DNA of 64,000 bases from Paenibacillus sp. BIHB 4019. GTDB taxonomy: Bacteria > Bacillota > Bacilli > Paenibacillales > Paenibacillaceae. Every line of letters starts with the position of its first letter. Positions within the stretch are counted from its first letter, which is position 1. Below the pieces are notes generated by a model. It did no database searches. It was not told the DNA's origin and saw nothing but the letters and a program-made list of their open reading frames with translations. A program made the position numbers and the translations under genes. The stretch is from positions 744,001 through 808,000 of the forward strand of contig NZ_CP016808.1 of the NCBI RefSeq assembly GCF_002741035.1, in the 5' to 3' direction. Shown piece by piece: positions 13,017 through 22,037 of the stretch.

Positions 13017-15083
13017 ATGAAAAAAATGATTGCTGGATTAATGGCTGCTGCGCTGTTCATGATCCCCGTAGCCCAGACGTTTGCTCAGGCGAATAAGGGG
13101 GCGGCACTGGATACGGTTAAGGAAAAGGCGCAGCTGCTCGCCTCGGAGCTTGTGTCCAATTACGGGGTCAGCGGGCTGCAATATGCGATTATGGATGAGG
13201 GGGCCGTTGCCCTATCGGATAGCGCGGGGGTAGATGATAGAGCGACCAAGACGCCCATTACGAAGGACAAGATGCTCGGAATAGGCTCGGTAAGCAAAAT
13301 GTACGTTACAGCAGCAGCGATGATGCTCGTTGATGCTAAGCAAATTGATATCGATAAGCCGTTGACGACGTATATCAAGGATTTTAAAATGGCCGATGAG
13401 CGCTACAAGCAAATAACGCCGCGCATGCTCATGAATCATTCAGCAGGACTTTACGGCTCCCACTATGAAAGCAGCATGCTGTTTGGTGACAACGATACAA
13501 GCAATCATGATAAATTATTGCTCCGCTTGCAAACTGAACGGTTAAAATCAGCTCCCGGCGAATTTTCGGTATATAGCAACGATAGTTTTCAACTGCTTGA
13601 GCAGTTGGTGGAACGAGTGAGCGGTTTAAGCTATACCGAATTCATTGCGCAGCGTATAGCCAAGCCTCTGAATTTAAGCGCTACGAAAACACCGCTCGAC
13701 TCCTTTGATCGGACGCGGCTGGCAAAAACGTATTTTCCGACGATGAATCAGGCTATGCCCGACGAAAACGCCAATGTCATTGGGACAGGAGGCATTTACT
13801 CAACGGCAGAGGAATTAAGTAAATTTGCTGACGTATTAATTGGCAATCATCCCGATATTTTATCCGTACAAGCTGCTGAAGCGATGCAAAGCCATGAGTA
13901 TAAAAAAGGCCTCTGGGTTTCGGATGAGTCTAATACCTTTAACTATGGCCTTGGCTGGGATGCCGTCAGCTTGGCGCCGTTTGATGATTATGGAATAACA
14001 GCCCTCTCTAAAGGCGGAGATACGATGATGTATCACGCTGCCCTGATAGCGCTGCCTGAGCACAACATTTCCATCGCCGTGCTTTCCTCGGGAGGAAGCT
14101 CCCTTTACAACAGCGTTTTTGCAACCAATGTTTTGCTAGAGTATTTAAAAGAGGAGAACATCATTCCAGACATTTTGCAGGATAAAACGTTCGAGCCTTC
14201 CGTGAAAGTCGATATGCCGGCAGATCTGCTTGCGTATTCCGGATTTTACGGTACGGTGGGATCAACATTGGATATTGCGATTGAGGACGGAGAGCTTGCT
14301 TTACCTGCTTTAATGGGAGGATTTATACCTGAACAAAAATACGTATACACAGGCAATGGACAATTCAAAAACAAAGAAGGCAGCATAACGCTAAGCTTTG
14401 ATGAGCAAAGCAATGGCAAAACGTATTTAAAGCTTAGCTCCTATTTGGATTTCCCGGGCATCGGCCAAACGCTCATGGTCGTTTACAGCTATCAGAAGCT
14501 GGACCCTAATCCTTTAACCCCGGCAACGAAACAGGCATGGGAAGCTAGAAACGGCAAAAGCTACTACCCTTTAAATGAGAAAATCACTTCTATTTTTTAT
14601 TTATTGCAGCCGTATTTCGTGAAGAAGGTTACTGTGAATGCCGAGTATGGATACGCATCAGGCACTAAAATTATGGATGCTAATACTGCCGTCAATGCTG
14701 CCGAAATTCCGGTTATGGACGGAAGAGATGCCTTTGACCTTCATTTCTACACATTGAAAAATAAGGAATATTTGATGATCGACGGCTCCTCTTTTATCCG
14801 TGAAGATGCAATCGCGCCTCTTTTCAGCGGAAAATCGTCGGTCAGCACGATCCCACCTAGCGGCCATGCCGTATGGTATAAAATTGACAAGAAGTCAGCG
14901 AATAAAAAGATGACTGTGGATGTGCCAGCAGGCGGCGGCTTTGCCGTGTATGATGCAGCAGGAATGATCGTCAACTTCTCGATCGCCAGTCTTGAAAAAT
15001 CGGTGACGCTGCCAAAAGACGGACTGATCGTTTTCGGCGGCCAAGCCGGGGATACGTTTAAAATTGATTTGAACAAGCAATAA
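13017..15083 (+). CDS. Secreted serine hydrolase, class C beta-lactamase fold
   Basis: The start is ATG 13017 behind GAGGAGG; the reading frame is open further upstream, but that part lacks a signal. The product has about 688 residues with a Sec signal peptide ending near AQTFAQA. The beta-lactamase/DD-peptidase domain (about 25-400) has SVSK (nucleophile Ser, about residues 91-94) and YSND in the YxN position. The remaining 280 residues form beta-rich domains I cannot name. Related proteins act as D,D-peptidases or esterases at the cell wall. The neighbouring van cluster gives a cell-wall context but not proof of that role. Confidence 0.85.
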   Translation: MKKMIAGLMAAALFMIPVAQTFAQANKGAALDTVKEKAQLLASELVSNYGVSGLQYAIMDEGAVALSDSAGVDDRATKTPITKDKMLGIGSVSKMYVTAAAMMLVDAKQIDIDKPLTTYIKDFKMADERYKQITPRMLMNHSAGLYGSHYESSMLFGDNDTSNHDKLLLRLQTERLKSAPGEFSVYSNDSFQLLEQLVERVSGLSYTEFIAQRIAKPLNLSATKTPLDSFDRTRLAKTYFPTMNQAMPDENANVIGTGGIYSTAEELSKFADVLIGNHPDILSVQAAEAMQSHEYKKGLWVSDESNTFNYGLGWDAVSLAPFDDYGITALSKGGDTMMYHAALIALPEHNISIAVLSSGGSSLYNSVFATNVLLEYLKEENIIPDILQDKTFEPSVKVDMPADLLAYSGFYGTVGSTLDIAIEDGELALPALMGGFIPEQKYVYTGNGQFKNKEGSITLSFDEQSNGKTYLKLSSYLDFPGIGQTLMVVYSYQKLDPNPLTPATKQAWEARNGKSYYPLNEKITSIFYLLQPYFVKKVTVNAEYGYASGTKIMDANTAVNAAEIPVMDGRDAFDLHFYTLKNKEYLMIDGSSFIREDAIAPLFSGKSSVSTIPPSGHAVWYKIDKKSANKKMTVDVPAGGGFAVYDAAGMIVNFSIASLEKSVTLPKDGLIVFGGQAGDTFKIDLNKQ

Positions 15084-15227: not shown

Positions 15228-18200
15228 TTAGTACTGGTTATAAATCCGGTACAGGAATACCGCTGCTTCCGCTCGGGTTGTGAGCGCCCGGGGATTAAGC
15301 TTATTTCCAGAACCGGAGATTAAACCTTCCTCCACAAGAAGCGCGAGGCTTGATTCCGCATAGGCAGCTATATCCTCTCTGTCGCGATAAGGCTCCAGCA
15401 CGGAGACATCTGCTGCAGCTTCCAGCCCTCTGAACTTCTCCAGCGCGCGGGCCGTCAGCACGATCATATCCTGCCGCGAGATGCTTTCCTGCGGATGGAA
15501 TTCATTGCTGCCTGATCCTGTCGCCAAGCCTAGCTGCTTGGCAATGCCCAGCGCTTCATAATAGTAGGCGTCCGAATCTGCATCAGCGAAGTTTTCTTTA
15601 AACTCGGCTGCCAGTCCTAATGTCTTTACAAGCAGGACAAGATAATCGGCCCTTGTGATGTTGGCGGCCGGCGTATAGTTCCCAGCCGATGTACCGCCGA
15701 TAATTCCCTTGGAAGCCATCACCTCGATGGAATGCCTCGCCCATTCCACCTTGCCTAAGTCTGCGAAGGTTTTGTGTACATAAGCCACTGCGTAGGAGCT
15801 AAAATGCGACGTTTCAAAGGTCACCGTTCCGCTCACCGCATCATAGCGTCCGCTTGGAACAGCGATGGCGTCGCCGCTGCCGTCGATATACCAAATGACG
15901 ATATGCTCTGGATTTTTCAATTGTTCAGCCGTTGGTGCGTAAGGGATCGTGATTTTAACTGGCGCGGCTGGATTGTTCCACGGCGTCGTTACGCCGTTCA
16001 GCGCCAGTGTAAGCTCAATTAGCGGGCGGTCGCCTATCGCTTCAGCCGCTTTAGCGGACAATCCCTTCTTATCGCCTACACCAATCGTAAGGCTTGCGAT
16101 TTTCCCATTCGTTTCTGCCATGCCATGCAGCATGTTAGCTGGAATGGCTATACTGCCTGCACGAGTTATGAAAATGAGTTCACCAGCGGCTTGCGCCATG
16201 GATATTGAATCCGCTGGCACTTCGAGCGTGTAAGATTTGATAGCAGGGATATTGGGCACAGTCATAACCGTCGTCTCGCTGGCGGTGAATATCTGTTTCG
16301 CCAGTTCGCCAATGGAAATGACTGCGCGCCCTGCCGCTGTATCAACCTTGACCGGCAGCGTTGGAAGCGTCGTTCCCCCGCTTCCTGTTACGGTTACAGA
16401 GTATTCCGGTGTCACCGTACTGCTTCCACCACTCCCACTGCCTCCGCTGTTACCATTGCCACTATTACCGCCACCACCGCTACCATTGCTTGGTTGGTTT
16501 ACCGTCAAGGTTACGATATAAGTGTCCGTAGAATCTGTAAATCCATCGTTGGCTGTGAAAACCAACGTCACAGTCCCTGCCAATGTTGGTGTGTACGTGT
16601 AGCTCTCGGTTGCTGCCACCGCCGCTGCACCGTCTACCGAAACTTTGTACGTTAGCGGATGATTATCCGCATCTTCAAATATGCTGGCAAGATCAAGTAT
16701 ATATGGCGTATTCACCGTCACAATTGCGGCTCCTGTCGCATCCACATCTGCCTGTCGGACAGGCACCGTATTAGCCGTGAGCTCCAACGTATAGGTATCC
16801 ACCGAATCGATTGTTCCATCGTTCGCCGTAAAGAGAAGCGTTGCTTGGCCTGCTGTTGTCGGCGTGTACATATAATTTTCCGCTGCAGCAACAGCGGCTG
16901 CTCCATCTATGGAAACCTTGTACGTTAGTCCATCGCCGTCTGCATCTTCAAAAATAGCGCCTAGATCTAGCGTATAAGTCCCGTTCAGCGTTATAACAGC
17001 AGTAGACGTTGCTCCAACGTTCGACTGACGTATTGGGATCGTATTAGCTGTAAGCTCCAACGTATAGGTATCTACGGAATCTATCACTCCGTCGTTCGCT
17101 GTAAAAACAAGCGTTACTTGGCCTCCCGCTGTCGGCGTGTACGTGTAATTCTCGACCGCAGCTGCTGCTGCCGCACCATCCACCGACACCTTGTACGTCA
17201 AGCCATCGCCATCTGCATCTTCAAAAATGTTAGCAAGATTAAGTGTATACGGCGTATTCACCGTCACAATTGCAGTTGCTGTTGCATCCACATCTGCTTG
17301 GCGAACAGGCACCGTGTTAGCCGTGAGTATCACCGTGTAGGTGTCCACCGAATCGATCGTTCCATCATTCGCTGTAAAAAGAAGCGTTACTTGGCCTGCT
17401 GTTGTCGGCGTGTACGTGTAATTTTCAGCCGCTGCTGCCCCCGCCGAACCATCCACCGATACTTTGTACGTCAAGCCATTTCCGTCAGCATCTGTAAAAA
17501 TAGTTGCTAAATCAAGCGTATACGGCGTGTTCACCGTCACCGTCGCTTCAACCGTCGCATCCTTATCCGGCTGGCGGACAGGCAGCGTGTTCACCGTCAG
17601 CTCTACCGTATACGTGTCCGATGAATCGCTCATGCCATCATTAGCGGTAAAAACGAGCGTAAATTGGCCTGCCGCTGCCGGCGTATACGTATAATTCTCT
17701 GCTGCTGTTACTGCCGCAGCGCCATCTAGGGATACGTCATAGGCTAATGCATCCGCATCTGCATCTTCAAAAATAGCGGCTAGATCAAGTATATACGCTG
17801 CATTTAACGATACAGTCGCAGTTGTCGTCGCAGCTACAGCCGCCTGTCGAACAGGCGCTTGATTCACCGCCAACTGGATCGTGTAAGTATCGTCCGATAA
17901 ATCTTCCCCATCAGCAGCCGTGAAAACAAGTGTTACGGGAGCTGCCGTATTTGGCGTGTAGGAGTAGGCTGCGCTTGCTGCTACCGCTGCTGCGCCGTTC
18001 ACCGCTACGTTATAGCTCAGCGGGTCGCTGTCCACATCTTCAAAGATCGTTGAAAGATCAAGCGTATAAGGCGTGTTTAGTGTTACTTTGGCAGTGTCCG
18101 CCGCATTTACATCCGCCTTGCGATTAGGCTTATTGTTAGGCGCCTCTATAACGGTCAAGTTGAACGATTTTATCCGGGTTTGCCCTCCCGATTTGCTGAT

Positions 18201-19748
18201 TGTAGCTGTTAAAGTAACGGCATGATCATCATCGGTTGCCCTTGTCACTTGGCCTGTGCTTGGATTAATGAGTCCGCTCACCGATGCGCTCCATATTATG
18301 GTCGAACCCGCAGCGCCATTTGCCGGAAGATTTAGATCCGCCGTTACATTATTTTCCGAGCTATTGGTTCCCTTAATCAAATCCCAAGTTAAATTCACAT
18401 GATCCAACGCTGTGGATTCCTTCGGCGTATAAGACTGCCACTGGAGAGAAGGATACGTGTACCCTTCTACAACTCTCCATACATTATTAAAGTCCCAAGT
18501 GGAGTAGGTCGCCTGCTGCATAAGCTCTCCGTTATTTTTAGCAGTGCCTCCGGCCGATGTAGCAGCACTTAAATGATAGTAATAGCTGTTTGTGACATTA
18601 CCGCTAGGATTGTAGCCAATCAGACCGCCAGTGGCATCCCTCCCGCCACTTGCAATTCCCGCGCTGTAGCTGTTGCTGACATCTCCCATATTCATTCCAA
18701 TGAGACCGCCTACAAAAACGGAGTTATCGCCACTGGCACTTCCCGTGCTGTAGCTATTGTTAATTGATCCACCTGACTTATAGCCAACCAAGCCTCCGAC
18801 CATTCCATCTGTATCAGCGTCTGTATTCCCTGTACTGTAGCTGCCGTTAATATAGCCTGCATTTCTGCCGACTAGCCCCCCGACAACCGAGCTATTTTTG
18901 CCGCTGGCATTACCGGAACCAAAGCTGTTATTAATGGTTCCGCTTGATGCATTAGAGCCAACCAGACCGCCCGCTGAAGAGGCATCTCCGGTTGTTACCG
19001 CGCTGCTGCTTTGGCTATCGCTAACGGTTCCCGCGTTCATGCCAGCAAGACCGCCAGCATAAGCCTGCAGATGATTGGTATTTACAGAGCCGCTGGCGCT
19101 GCTGCCCATGATGGATCCAGCATTCACACCGACCAGGCCGCCTGCACTAAAGTCATCAGCGCCGCTAGTAATTACGCTGTTGCTTGAGCTATTGCTGATC
19201 GTCCCGGCATTATTACCAACCAGCCCCCCTACCGCGGTAGGATCGGTAAAAGAAAGGAGACCATTGCTCTTGCTATCCGTAACGGTTGCACCCGATGCGG
19301 TGTAGCCGACCAAACCTCCGACATGCGCATTATTTCCTGTAGCCGTAATATTAAAATCGGCCAGCGTCATATTTTTAAGCACAGCCCCGCTACTTAGTTC
19401 TGAAAACAAGCCCACAAAGAAATCCGCTGAATTCATATTCAGATTATAAATGCCAAAACCATTGCCGTCATAAATACCGCGAAAAGCCCCGAGCGGCGTC
19501 CAATTGCCCGTCAAGTGAATATCCCCTGTCTGCTGAAAATAAGCTCCCGCTCCCGGAATATTGACGTTGCTTAATTCCGCCGCGCTTGACACTTTATAGG
19601 GATTCGCAAGCGTGCCGTCTCCCCCTGAGAAATTCACCGTATCTTCGGCCGCATACACCGCTTGGGGCATCCCCACAGCGAAAAGGCTTGCCATCATACT
19701 AATGACAATAAGCATAGCTGTCGCTCTGTTCCACACTCTTTTATCCAT
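15228..19748 (-). CDS. SLH-anchored surface protein with GLUG motifs and six Ig/cadherin-like repeats
   Basis: A 1506-residue exported protein. Domains in order: signal peptide (1-34, ending VYAAE); GLUG-type repeats (about 100-400) with VGGLVG..AGTISNS units; a bacterial Ig-like domain (about 440-530); six tandem repeats of about 91 residues (539-1084) with TPYTLDLATIFEDADG and FTANDGTIDSVDTYT cores; a Gly/Ser linker; an unassigned domain; three SLH domains (1324-1506) that bind secondary wall polymer. RBS GGGAGG precedes ATG 19748. It is likely an S-layer-attached adhesin or carbohydrate-facing protein; no catalytic domain is recognised. Confidence 0.9.
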   Translation of the reverse strand: MDKRVWNRATAMLIVISMMASLFAVGMPQAVYAAEDTVNFSGGDGTLANPYKVSSAAELSNVNIPGAGAYFQQTGDIHLTGNWTPLGAFRGIYDGNGFGIYNLNMNSADFFVGLFSELSSGAVLKNMTLADFNITATGNNAHVGGLVGYTASGATVTDSKSNGLLSFTDPTAVGGLVGNNAGTISNSSSNSVITSGADDFSAGGLVGVNAGSIMGSSASGSVNTNHLQAYAGGLAGMNAGTVSDSQSSSAVTTGDASSAGGLVGSNASSGTINNSFGSGNASGKNSSVVGGLVGRNAGYINGSYSTGNTDADTDGMVGGLVGYKSGGSINNSYSTGSASGDNSVFVGGLIGMNMGDVSNSYSAGIASGGRDATGGLIGYNPSGNVTNSYYYHLSAATSAGGTAKNNGELMQQATYSTWDFNNVWRVVEGYTYPSLQWQSYTPKESTALDHVNLTWDLIKGTNSSENNVTADLNLPANGAAGSTIIWSASVSGLINPSTGQVTRATDDDHAVTLTATISKSGGQTRIKSFNLTVIEAPNNKPNRKADVNAADTAKVTLNTPYTLDLSTIFEDVDSDPLSYNVAVNGAAAVAASAAYSYTPNTAAPVTLVFTAADGEDLSDDTYTIQLAVNQAPVRQAAVAATTTATVSLNAAYILDLAAIFEDADADALAYDVSLDGAAAVTAAENYTYTPAAAGQFTLVFTANDGMSDSSDTYTVELTVNTLPVRQPDKDATVEATVTVNTPYTLDLATIFTDADGNGLTYKVSVDGSAGAAAAENYTYTPTTAGQVTLLFTANDGTIDSVDTYTVILTANTVPVRQADVDATATAIVTVNTPYTLNLANIFEDADGDGLTYKVSVDGAAAAAAVENYTYTPTAGGQVTLVFTANDGVIDSVDTYTLELTANTIPIRQSNVGATSTAVITLNGTYTLDLGAIFEDADGDGLTYKVSIDGAAAVAAAENYMYTPTTAGQATLLFTANDGTIDSVDTYTLELTANTVPVRQADVDATGAAIVTVNTPYILDLASIFEDADNHPLTYKVSVDGAAAVAATESYTYTPTLAGTVTLVFTANDGFTDSTDTYIVTLTVNQPSNGSGGGGNSGNGNSGGSGSGGSSTVTPEYSVTVTGSGGTTLPTLPVKVDTAAGRAVISIGELAKQIFTASETTVMTVPNIPAIKSYTLEVPADSISMAQAAGELIFITRAGSIAIPANMLHGMAETNGKIASLTIGVGDKKGLSAKAAEAIGDRPLIELTLALNGVTTPWNNPAAPVKITIPYAPTAEQLKNPEHIVIWYIDGSGDAIAVPSGRYDAVSGTVTFETSHFSSYAVAYVHKTFADLGKVEWARHSIEVMASKGIIGGTSAGNYTPAANITRADYLVLLVKTLGLAAEFKENFADADSDAYYYEALGIAKQLGLATGSGSNEFHPQESISRQDMIVLTARALEKFRGLEAAADVSVLEPYRDREDIAAYAESSLALLVEEGLISGSGNKLNPRALTTRAEAAVFLYRIYNQY
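16495..18130 (-). repeat. Six tandem about 273-bp coding repeats
   Basis: The six Ig/cadherin-like units of the SLH protein are similar at the DNA level, particularly the four from about 16500 to 17600, where whole phrases such as the FTANDGTIDSVDTYT codons recur. This suggests recent unit duplication or gene conversion. Unit-number variation between strains is likely. Confidence 0.8.
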
Positions 19749-19926: not shown

Positions 19927-20045
19927 GTAATAAATATTTTATTGTGCGTCCTTATTTCTATCAAACTCGAAAGCATATGGTAACATGAATAGGGATAAAC
20001 GCTGTTCTAACAAACCTGGCATACGGAAAAATTGAGGTGTATACG

Positions 20046-22037
20046 ATGAAATGGGATGAACATATGCTGCTGTGGAGCAAAGCGGCTGTACGTATCCTTG
20101 ATATTCGCTATAAAGTGATGTGGGAAGGGCAGGATATGCTTTCTTACCGACTGCCTGCAAACGTATTTTTGCTTGTTACAAGCGGCAGTGCCTACGTCCA
20201 AATTGATGAAAATAAAACCCTGCTCAAGCGGTATCATTTATTGCATGCGGGCAAAGGGATGTATGTAGATGTGATGCCTGCCAAGCATGAATTTGCTTGT
20301 TATTTAGTTTTCTACAAGGCCGTCCTCCCCTCCACTTCGCCGAATTCTGCCATGAAGCGGCTTGCCGAGCAAGATAGGCCATTCGGCAAATTTTTTCACG
20401 TTATTCCTCCTGAGCCTGCTATGCTGTACAACCAGATTCGCCGAATGTACGAAGGATGGCAGCAATCCGGTGTGCTTGCCCAAATTCGGATGAAGGCTAT
20501 GCTGTTCGAATTTATATATGAGCTGTTCACCCAACTAGAAACCTCCAAGGAAATGGGCAGCCCTTCTGATCTCGTCACTCATGCTTTGCGGTATATTCAT
20601 GAGCATTACACCAAACCCGTTACAATGGTTCAATTGGCCGATCTCCTCGGCTGCAGCATCAGCTATATGCACAGGCTGTTTAAAGCAGAGGTAGGCAAAA
20701 GCCCGAATGAATATATCATCGGAAAGCGCATGGAGCAGGCTCAACAATATTTGCTTACTACTCAGCTGAATTTGCGGGAAATAGCCGAATCAGTCGGTTA
20801 TTCGGATGTGTATTATTTTAGCCGCTTATATAAAAAACAGTTCGGCATCTCGCCACTGCAAGCTCGAAAATTTCAGTCTGAAAACGGGTTTAGCGATGTT
20901 AATCCATTAAATCCGTCACGATCCTCTATTGTTCCATCCCTGCCGCACTCCTATAATCATGATGTAAATGAAAATCATTTTCATCAAAAGGGAGAGGTAG
21001 ATTTGATTTCAAACCGCAATACAAAACCTTCAATGACTGCTTTGCTCGTGCTGTGCCTATCACTGCTAATGAGCGCCTGCCAATCGGGAGGCAATTCAAT
21101 AAGCTCAGAAAATCAGGGCAATCACACATCCAACGCTGTCAATCAAGCAGCGGCTAACTCCGCTGCAAAGGATGGCGAATCCGCTCCGGCTACAAGGCTT
21201 TACAAGCATAAATACGGAGAAACCGAAATTCCTGTGCAGCCAAAGCGGATTATCACGCCTTACCATCTCGGACATATGCTCGCACTCGGCGAGCGTCCAC
21301 TCGGTGCTGCTACCTATGTGCTGCAATACTCCGCAAGCGCGATGGATACAACTGGTATTGCCGATTTAGGAGCTCCTCTTAATCTGGAGGCCATTTCCGA
21401 TCTGGAACCGGATTTAATTATTATAATAGAAGCTTACCTTGAACCAAGCGGCGGTTATGAGGCATTCAGTAAAATCGCCCCTACCGTTGTGCTAGAGGCA
21501 CATCAGGATCCAATCAAAGATATTACACTGATTGGAGATATACTTGGCAAGCAAGAGGAAGCTCAGCAATGGATTACCCAATTCGAAGCCAAAATTGCCG
21601 AAACCAAAGAGCGCGTACACCAAGTCATTAACCCGGAGGAAACGTTCACGATACTGAATGTAAGAACCGCCAAAAATCGAATGATTTATCGGGACCGCAA
21701 TATGGGCGGCAATATTTTGTATACGTATTGGGGATTTAAACCTCAGGAGAAAGTTTTGAAGGATGTAATCGAAGGCATTGATGATGAATCCTCTTATCTG
21801 GATATAGCGGAGGAAGCGATTCCTGAGTATGCTGGCGATCACTTAATATTAGCCGCCGCTGCAGATGCACAAGATTCAGTTGACGAGCTAATGAAGAGCG
21901 GGATTTGGAAAAATCTTGATGCCGTGAAAAATAATCACGTGTATACGATCGATTTTGATCAGTTCCTATTCAACGATCCGATCTTTTCGATGAAGCAAAT
22001 CGATATATTAACGGATCTGCTAACTGCAGGCCAATAA
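20046..22037 (+). CDS. AraC regulator in frame with siderophore-binding lipoprotein (composite ORF)
   Basis: One open frame of about 663 residues; I start it at ATG 20046 (GAGGTG before it). An in-frame GTG at 20037 is an alternative. Residues 1-180 resemble an AraC ligand-binding part, and 182-275 form the AraC HTH (LADLLGCSISYMHRLFKAEVGKSPNEY, IAESVGYSDVYYFSRLYKKQFG). A 45-residue low-complexity linker follows, then a complete lipoprotein signal and an iron-siderophore binding domain. In Bacilli, Btr/YbbB-like regulators fuse AraC to a cytoplasmic binding domain; here the second half has its own lipobox. The DNA under the linker holds a promoter, a Fur box and an RBS, so a separate second product is likely. 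Confidence 0.8.
   Translation: MKWDEHMLLWSKAAVRILDIRYKVMWEGQDMLSYRLPANVFLLVTSGSAYVQIDENKTLLKRYHLLHAGKGMYVDVMPAKHEFACYLVFYKAVLPSTSPNSAMKRLAEQDRPFGKFFHVIPPEPAMLYNQIRRMYEGWQQSGVLAQIRMKAMLFEFIYELFTQLETSKEMGSPSDLVTHALRYIHEHYTKPVTMVQLADLLGCSISYMHRLFKAEVGKSPNEYIIGKRMEQAQQYLLTTQLNLREIAESVGYSDVYYFSRLYKKQFGISPLQARKFQSENGFSDVNPLNPSRSSIVPSLPHSYNHDVNENHFHQKGEVDLISNRNTKPSMTALLVLCLSLLMSACQSGGNSISSENQGNHTSNAVNQAAANSAAKDGESAPATRLYKHKYGETEIPVQPKRIITPYHLGHMLALGERPLGAATYVLQYSASAMDTTGIADLGAPLNLEAISDLEPDLIIIIEAYLEPSGGYEAFSKIAPTVVLEAHQDPIKDITLIGDILGKQEEAQQWITQFEAKIAETKERVHQVINPEETFTILNVRTAKNRMIYRDRNMGGNILYTYWGFKPQEKVLKDVIEGIDDESSYLDIAEEAIPEYAGDHLILAAAADAQDSVDELMKSGIWKNLDAVKNNHVYTIDFDQFLFNDPIFSMKQIDILTDLLTAGQ
20929..20957 (+). 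promoter_or_regulatory. Internal sigma-A-type promoter inside the composite ORF
   Basis: TTGTTC (20929-20934), a 17-nt spacer and a perfect TATAAT (20952-20957) lie within coding sequence, 46 nt before the TTG start of the lipoprotein segment. Confidence 0.75.
20968..20984 (+). promoter_or_regulatory. Fur box
   Basis: ATGAAAATCATTTTCAT is a perfect 17-bp palindrome matching the classical Fur consensus (TGATAAT-n-ATTATCA, 7-1-7) closely. It begins 11 nt after the -10 hexamer, where bound Fur-Fe would block the internal promoter. In the composite frame it is translated as NENHFH. Confidence 0.8.
21003..22037 (+). CDS. Iron-siderophore ABC transporter substrate-binding lipoprotein (internal start)
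   Basis: The probable stand-alone product of the downstream half: TTG 21003 follows GGGAGAGG with 5-nt spacing. The 344-residue protein starts with a basic n-region, a hydrophobic core and lipobox LLMSAC, then a Ser/Asn/Ala linker. The class III binding-protein domain has PVQPKRIITPYHLGHMLAL, LEAISDLEPDLIIII and YTIDFDQFLFNDPI, as in FhuD/FeuA-type receptors. It should capture ferric siderophores at the membrane face. No permease or ATPase genes are adjacent, so it must use a transporter encoded elsewhere. The Fur box upstream predicts iron repression. Confidence 0.8.
   Translation: MISNRNTKPSMTALLVLCLSLLMSACQSGGNSISSENQGNHTSNAVNQAAANSAAKDGESAPATRLYKHKYGETEIPVQPKRIITPYHLGHMLALGERPLGAATYVLQYSASAMDTTGIADLGAPLNLEAISDLEPDLIIIIEAYLEPSGGYEAFSKIAPTVVLEAHQDPIKDITLIGDILGKQEEAQQWITQFEAKIAETKERVHQVINPEETFTILNVRTAKNRMIYRDRNMGGNILYTYWGFKPQEKVLKDVIEGIDDESSYLDIAEEAIPEYAGDHLILAAAADAQDSVDELMKSGIWKNLDAVKNNHVYTIDFDQFLFNDPIFSMKQIDILTDLLTAGQ

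Follow-up and report, generated by a model that had tools for sequence, protein, structure and literature searches.

A single open frame in Paenibacillus that may encode both a membrane-spanning AraC-type regulator and its siderophore receptor

Membrane-spanning one-component regulators are exemplified by the ToxR and CadC type, and regulators of the AraC/XylS class are characterized by a direct-repeat operator that overlaps the −35 element of the target promoter. The receptor lipoproteins FhuD2, FtsB, YfiY, and SirA are encoded as separate genes. In the regulator Btr, the binding domain is joined directly, without a signal peptide, and is cytoplasmic. Btr (YbbB) of Bacillus subtilis is described as a one-component regulator of the AraC family whose sensor domain resembles FeuA (NCBIfam NF049932; PMC9609785, PMC3896406), and Shigella VirF as the product of an AraC-like gene that makes two proteins, of which the shorter can also arise from a promoter inside the gene (PMC5101355). 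Here we analyzed a long open frame in a stretch of 64,000 nucleotides from Paenibacillus sp. BIHB 4019 (contig NZ_CP016808.1, positions 744,001 to 808,000; the whole stretch is called the window here), which joins an AraC regulator to a siderophore-binding lipoprotein. We consider it probable that this one gene gives two products: a membrane-spanning sensor-regulator, and a receptor lipoprotein from an inner promoter that would be activated by AraC and repressed by Fur with iron. No description of this architecture was found in searches of the open-licence PMC literature, which covered titles, abstract openings, and passages.

The initial annotation, made from the DNA letters, had proposed that one frame joins an AraC protein, a lipoprotein signal, and a binding domain, and the 663 stop-free codons together with the Pfam matches bear this out (Table 1). 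The AraC helix–turn–helix (HTH) match covers residues 184–275 and the Peripla_BP_2 match residues 445–637. The double HTH of the AraC/XylS class scores above the cut-off with both models (HTH_18, 76.5 bits, cut-off 33.6; HTH_AraC, 85 bits, cut-off 26.6), and the domains follow each other in the order PF00165/PF12833, then PF01497 (82.7 bits, cut-off 27.5). A GTG at 20037 is a possible alternative start. The AlphaFold2 model of the long protein (34 sequences; mean predicted local distance difference test, 79.5; predicted template modelling score, 0.46) contains a β-rich N-terminal domain, which we take to be cupin-like, a double HTH that extends to residue 279, and a binding domain at residues 383–660. 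The linker (residues 280–330) is of low confidence; it is followed by a helix (residues 330–344) and by a second low-confidence stretch before the binding domain. The solved structures nearest in sequence to the C-terminal half are 3hxp, 3g9q, FtsB, FhuD2, and SirA, which are receptors of ferric hydroxamates or related siderophores; the nearest in fold are FtsB, FhuD, FhuD2, YfiY, and SirA. The C-terminal half is predicted to bind a ferric siderophore; its closest solved relatives are ferric-hydroxamate receptors.

The promoter TTGTTC-17-TATAAT, the 17-bp palindrome, the ribosome-binding site (RBS), and the TTG start that had been noted in the linker are all present (20929–21005), and conservation of the DNA in the family backs them. 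The in-frame TTG (21003–21005) heads the lipoprotein signal. When TGAWAATNATTWTCA was searched with at most one mismatch, the 64-kb window gave one match, at the linker and without a mismatch (expected 0.18; at least one match in 17 of 100 shuffles). Taken alone, the elements of this member are suggestive only, and it is their conservation as DNA across the family that lifts them above chance.

To describe the family we aligned by codon 80 non-redundant intact fusions (20 from the genome of this strain, 37 of the loci L058–L100, and 23 of L113–L138), and codon constraint was computed on the 368 pairs with 60–95 % identity among them. Where the residue is the same, the codon is also identical at a frequency of 0.60 in the N-terminal domain, 0.58 in the HTH, and 0.55 in the binding domain, as against 0.94 in the first half-site of a direct repeat described below, 0.80 in the operator/−35 region, 0.99 in the −10 element, 0.93 in the Fur-like site, and 0.89 in the RBS; in the promoter spacer the value is back to 0.54. 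The proportion of synonymous differences (pS) is 0.02–0.29 in the embedded elements and 0.59–0.65 in the domains. The 17-nt spacer between the −35 and −10 elements is ungapped in all 80 members. The −35 element starts with TTG in 66 of the 80 and matches TTGACA at 3.4 of 6 positions on average, and the −10 hexamers are CATAAT (27), TATATT (15), TATAAT (14), and TATAGT (11), plus others. The column of the inner start holds ATG, GTG, or TTG in 72 of 80, the TTG of this member lying two codons ahead of it. A Shine–Dalgarno (SD)-like match of at least 5/6 precedes 79 % of 78 outer starts, 56 % of 80 inner starts, and 10 % of 646 control codons, where the outer figure is favored because the outer start was taken as the best-scoring start within a range. 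All 80 members carry a lipobox (none was dropped for want of it, and the cysteine stands in every row of the family alignments), and the n-region is net positive in all of them.

A Fur-like box lies over the promoter, as is expected at the sequence level for the Fur regulon. The Fur score (of 19) is 13–18 in the linkers, with a mean of 15.4, compared to 9.9 for a control inside AraC; the 200-nt stretch that precedes the long frame is intermediate (mean 12.1), but it is longer than the control, which raises the maximum score. At this site Fur would repress the inner promoter in an iron-dependent manner. In the whole genome, matches to the Fur site with at most three mismatches number 87 on both strands, versus 1 for the reversed pattern; by coordinates, 10 of the 20 long fusions carry such a match in the linker. 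The other 10 linkers, including that of the present member, have none at this threshold; its palindrome is absent from the list because it has only 15/19 matches. The conventional receptor genes of the same genome have, by eye, a similar layout of −10 element, Fur site, and RBS.

Upstream of and overlapping the −35 element we observed a direct repeat that was absent from the initial annotation. The half-sites match each other at 6.87 of 11 positions at a spacing of 22 nt, as compared to 1.6–4.4 at other spacings (12–33 nt, 77 ungapped members). This is the arrangement of AraC/XylS operators at the level of the DNA letters, and the repeat is likely the AraC operator. The operator score (of 17) has a mean of 14.5 in the linkers; the values for the 200-nt stretch before the long frame (9.85) and for the control (9.9) are at the same level, and therefore the long product would mostly not be under this operator. 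Operator distance tracks HTH distance, with a partial r of 0.42 given the binding domain and 0.76 given the N-terminal domain; neighboring control DNA gave lower values (0.33/0.36 and 0.22/0.27), though linkage contributes. An operator search of the genome with at most two mismatches found 14 sites, 8 of which are in linkers of long fusions. An operator-like direct repeat with two mismatches lies outside the fusion frame at 14354–14386 of the window, on the minus strand. Weaker matches are many elsewhere; as the reversed-pattern control (2 hits versus 61) is poorly matched in composition, interpretation is confined to the linker sites.

The initial annotation regarded the arrangement as unusual, which is right as to its kind, although not as an isolated case, as it belongs to a conserved family. 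In the genome of this strain (7.25 Mb, one contig) we counted 20 full-length copies without a stop, this one included, and the other 19 are 27–50 % identical to it; a weaker 21st match (L021) has one TAA between the halves. A read-through search that counts stops, over 40 genomes at E ≤ 1e-80, gave 86 matches in 10 genomes, all 86 stop-free, and a search of the genus at the same threshold (51 genomes) gave at least 189 matches in 26 genomes; both include the own genome. Every genus-search row among the matches listed is stop-free, down to approximately 30 % identity. These family counts are lower bounds, since the number of initial candidates per genome was capped. The named relatives are mostly Paenibacillus and Cohnella, plus one Lysinibacillus and two Bacillus entries, and the database names, where given, mostly label the long proteins as either regulator or receptor.

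A DNA scan anchored on the receptor half found 55 loci, of which 43 (L058–L100) are in Paenibacillus, Cohnella, and a Paenibacillaceae bacterium; 37 of the 43 are intact single frames. L099, a distant receptor (26 %), lacks AraC, which leaves 42 family loci, 5 of them lesioned. The N-terminal half of AraC is interrupted by a stop in L075 and by a frame change in L098, and in both the part from the HTH to the receptor is still open. The inner promoter region of these two is likewise unbroken, as though the receptor were retained after loss of the regulator, unless the draft sequences contain errors. In L094 both halves are broken, L097 is a receptor fragment, and in L096, which looks like a deletion, an intact AraC half runs into a stop while the receptor half is N-terminally shortened and in a different frame. 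In none of the 42 loci does a stop separate an AraC half from a receptor half when both are intact. A check proposed with the initial annotation, whether a stop codon between the halves is common in homologues, thus has a negative answer for close relatives; such stops do occur in L021, in the deletion-like L096, and in a distant subfamily of split pairs. The other linker frames, +1 and +2, contain stops in 64 and 80 of the 80 members, respectively. Among 19 stand-alone receptors (a control set with L021 and some distant receptors), 18 have an in-frame stop in the 47 codons that precede the assumed start of the signal peptide, the exception being L099. Chance read-through was rejected on these frame controls and on the split pairs.

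The split pairs came from a search with the AraC half of L021 (G000:C1:2387227–2389098; the others are among L186–L213), which gave 28 loci of a more distant AraC subfamily, 20 of them, L021 included, with a receptor downstream. The relative frames of regulator and receptor are 0, 1, and 2 in 7, 8, and 5 pairs. A similar direct repeat is kept, at 22 nt in 5 pairs and 23 nt in 15. The AraC stop lies inside this repeat in 13 of 20 pairs (best fit with the spacing free between 20 and 24 nt, no shuffle control); when the spacing was set to 22 nt, the repeats at 23 nt were overlooked and the stop fell within the operator in 8 of 20 pairs. Such pairs, with their similar operator–promoter layout, are plausible as the unfused relative, and the position of the stop suggests that the fusion may have arisen by loss of a stop inside the operator of an in-phase pair. 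In a FastTree tree of the HTH, 30 of 31 long-type members group with four others (support 0.90), one of which is the lesioned L096, and in the corresponding tree of the binding proteins the long-type halves are mixed among stand-alone ones; the trees sample 31 of the 80 members with short alignments. The HTH and binding-domain distances correlate at 0.84, which disfavors frequent exchange.

We propose the following mechanism, modeled for its topology, ligand-dependent activation, and Fur binding on the AraC, Btr, lipoprotein, and Fur families. From its own start the long frame would yield a 663-residue protein in which an AraC activator in the cytoplasm is connected, through a disordered linker and one membrane helix, to an extracytoplasmic domain that binds ferric siderophore. 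The membrane helix would be the lipoprotein signal, and the whole is probably a membrane-spanning one-component sensor-regulator. The inner promoter, with an AraC-type operator over a weak −35 element, a good −10 element, and a Fur-like site over the start, would give, through its RBS and start codon, the lipoprotein receptor alone. Under iron shortage, Fur would leave the inner site; on binding of the matching ferric siderophore to the protein, its AraC half would occupy the repeat, which lies within the gene's own coding region, and more receptor would be made. The sequences show the frame, its conservation, the constraint on the DNA, and the repeat; we infer that both products are made, that AraC binds the repeat and Fur the palindrome, and that the long protein has this topology and senses the ligand. 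Since selection acts on the DNA signals for a separate receptor and also on the open fused frame, two products are favored. The initial annotation offered two proteins or a membrane-spanning fusion; each alternative is supported, and the either/or is not, because DNA-level conservation and the retained stop-free frame support the two together.

Several points weigh against the two-product reading, which is drawn from sequence comparison and a structure model. This member has a weak −35 element, a TTG start, and a palindrome, ATGAAAATCATTTTCAT, that matches GATAATGATAATCATTATC at 15/19. In 15 of 80 members the operator matches its consensus poorly (≤12/17, within the control range), and the second half-site alone tracks the binding domain as much as the HTH (partial r 0.20, 0.17). 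A member's own half-sites pair better than shuffled ones (6.87 versus 6.40, 0 of 5000 shuffles; 24 of 5000 for the 19 own-genome copies alone), where relatedness inflates both this test and the distance-correlation permutations. With a spacer pN/pS (nonsynonymous over synonymous) of 0.85, the linker residues evolve almost freely, and the protein linker itself shows no function. Some members have a Fur-like site of up to 17/19 upstream of the long frame also; as the upstream scores exceed the control, the long product may be under Fur in a minority. The 80 members were selected to have an open frame, and the absence of stops among them follows from that selection; counts free of it come from the own-genome copies, the receptor-anchored scan, and the 40-genome and genus searches. 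At E ≤ 1e-80 these searches miss pairs in different frames and distant members such as L020 and L021 of the own genome. The existence of the unfused L021 and of the split subfamily indicates that fusion is not indispensable, and five family loci are lesioned. FecCD permease genes directly adjoin, by coordinates, only 2 of the 20 own-genome copies (L008 and L012). Most copies, this one included, would therefore have to share permeases, and no operon-based function can be read. Finally, the lipobox of the long protein could be cleaved there too.

The last point leads to a rival in which the long protein is inserted, lipidated, and cut at the lipobox into a receptor and an AraC part that is membrane-bound or later released, and which reports secretion or processing and not the ligand. 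The lipobox and the positive n-region of all members apply to both products, but the lipobox is sufficiently explained by the lipoprotein that the inner promoter would provide anyway, and we regard cleavage as unlikely. Only slightly better placed, and still improbable, is the view that these are two conventional genes that lost a stop, with only the AraC part active, the appended receptor tolerated, and the receptor made solely from the inner promoter. The nearly unconstrained linker residues agree with it, as do the split pairs with a similar operator and promoter, in which AraC presumably works unfused. It has to contend with a frame that is open in 86 of 86 rows and in all genus matches listed, when stand-alone receptors have upstream stops in 18 of 19 cases. 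In addition, a protein search for a stand-alone AraC half found no close full-length one, the nearest being fragments, HTH-only matches, and one 419-residue protein at 36 %, in a search of limited sensitivity (the split L021 type is absent from its matches).

That the long fusion is the sole product, its inner elements coincidental or vestigial, seems very improbable. A generic promoter scan did not report the inner promoter, which would fit; it was missed because the −35 element matches TTGACA at 3/6 only, and we take the miss as a sign of an activator-dependent promoter, not of its absence. The focused synonymous-site constraint, the ungapped 17-nt spacer, and the Fur-like sites argue for function at the DNA level. 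An artefact of sequencing or annotation, with a missed stop or frameshift, could point to the lesions in L075, L094, L096, and L098, but the frame is open in 20 copies of a single-contig genome and in 9 further genomes. With the same architecture in so many genomes, this explanation was rejected; it is in effect refuted by the family and has a negligible probability.

Table 1. Features of the long frame and of the elements embedded in it (window positions).
Feature	Position	Strand	Basis
Probable RBS of the long frame, GAGGTG	20034..20039	+	Sequence; family trend for SD at the AraC start
Long frame: AraC regulator, linker, lipoprotein signal, siderophore-binding protein	20046..22037	+	663 codons, stop-free
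AraC half (residues 1–278): β-rich N-terminal domain and double HTH	20046..20879	+	Pfam, AlphaFold2 model
Direct-repeat half-site 1 (family consensus AT..TCCATT), proposed AraC operator	20899..20909	+	Alignment, spacing scan
Direct-repeat half-site 2, 22 nt after half-site 1, overlaps the −35 element (TTGT)	20921..20931	+	Alignment, spacing scan
−35 element TTGTTC, weak (3/6 to TTGACA)	20929..20934	+	Sequence; family
−10 element TATAAT, 17 nt past the −35 element	20952..20957	+	Sequence; family alignment
Fur-like palindrome ATGAAAATCATTTTCAT, over the expected transcription start	20968..20984	+	Sequence; family Fur scores
RBS of the inner gene, GGGAGAGG	20990..20997	+	Sequence; family codon constraint
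Inner gene: putative lipoprotein siderophore-binding protein, 344 residues, TTG start, frame shared with the long frame	21003..22037	+	
Hydrophobic signal helix (residues 330–344) and lipobox Cys345 (codon 21078–21080)	21033..21080	+	Predicted helix; family alignments
Siderophore-binding domain (residues 383–660), ferric-hydroxamate receptor-like fold	21192..22025	+	Pfam, sequence and fold matches, model

Other copies and neighboring genes were also noted. Two long fusions (L010 and L007, G000:C1:4444005–4448168) stand head to tail, each with its own embedded Fur-like site, and the genus search found neighboring same-strand pairs in G010 (4808715–4812861) and G064 (4293794–4299679). Approximately 11.5 kb before the window start, the long fusion L008 (G000:C1:730655–732538, minus strand) is followed directly by two FecCD permease genes, so that its embedded promoter would drive a receptor–permease operon. 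The fusion in the window is adjoined by a 1506-residue protein (15228–19748, minus strand) with a secretion-like start and repeats, the C-terminal region of which resembles, by eye, S-layer homology domains.

If the two-product reading holds, it would offer a direct and testable answer to the question of how a scavenging organism, equipped with dozens of siderophore receptors, selectively induces the one that is of use. The ligand specificities of sensor and receptor could not drift apart, because both are the same codons, and would evolve together. A recent survey ranks Paenibacillus first among genera by the ratio of such receptor genes to siderophore clusters (29.43; PMC13293324). The family would also exemplify clearly how an entire regulatory region, with operator, promoter, Fur-like site, RBS, and start, can be conserved within a reading frame, and its split relatives suggest a route, with one stop lost that in many pairs (13/20) is already inside the repeat. 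Counts of regulators and of receptors are both affected by the either/or naming in databases. A wider proposal, which we hold to be evenly poised, is that these proteins form an undescribed receptor-as-sensor class: membrane-spanning AraC activators whose outside domain is the receptor, with operator, Fur-controlled promoter, and receptor start in their own coding sequence, so that a single frame would give both sensor and receptor for each siderophore, and with up to approximately 20 copies per genome serving as private switches for xenosiderophores.

As in Btr, an AraC half is followed by a siderophore-binding-protein domain, and the AraC part aligns with the Btr model at residues 39–272. 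Unlike Btr, the whole protein scores 118 bits with NF049932, far from the cut-off of 900. In the Btr-type fusions of the same genome approximately 0 residues separate the HTH from the binding domain, so that a signal peptide could not fit between them, whereas the 80 long-type members have 57–76 residues between the domain matches, which hold the promoter and the lipoprotein signal. The suggestion that this case could show how Btr-type fusions evolve is thus not established. In the Btr system the receptor FeuA is a separate gene, whereas in the long type the receptor would be the sensor. The C-terminal half resembles the Gram-positive ferric-hydroxamate receptor lipoproteins FhuD2, FtsB, YfiY, and SirA in fold, sequence, and lipobox, and differs from them in that the promoter and start sit within the coding sequence of another protein. 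The proposed layout, with an N-terminal DNA-binding domain inside, one helix, and a sensor outside, is that of the ToxR/CadC type; in place of their OmpR-type winged helix there is an AraC double HTH, the sensor would be a complete transport receptor, and the helix would be a lipoprotein signal. A parallel in gene organization is VirF, where a single AraC-family frame has two products and an internal promoter; the short form of VirF is a truncated regulator, whereas here it would be a receptor that is exported and that has Fur-like and AraC-type sites of its own.

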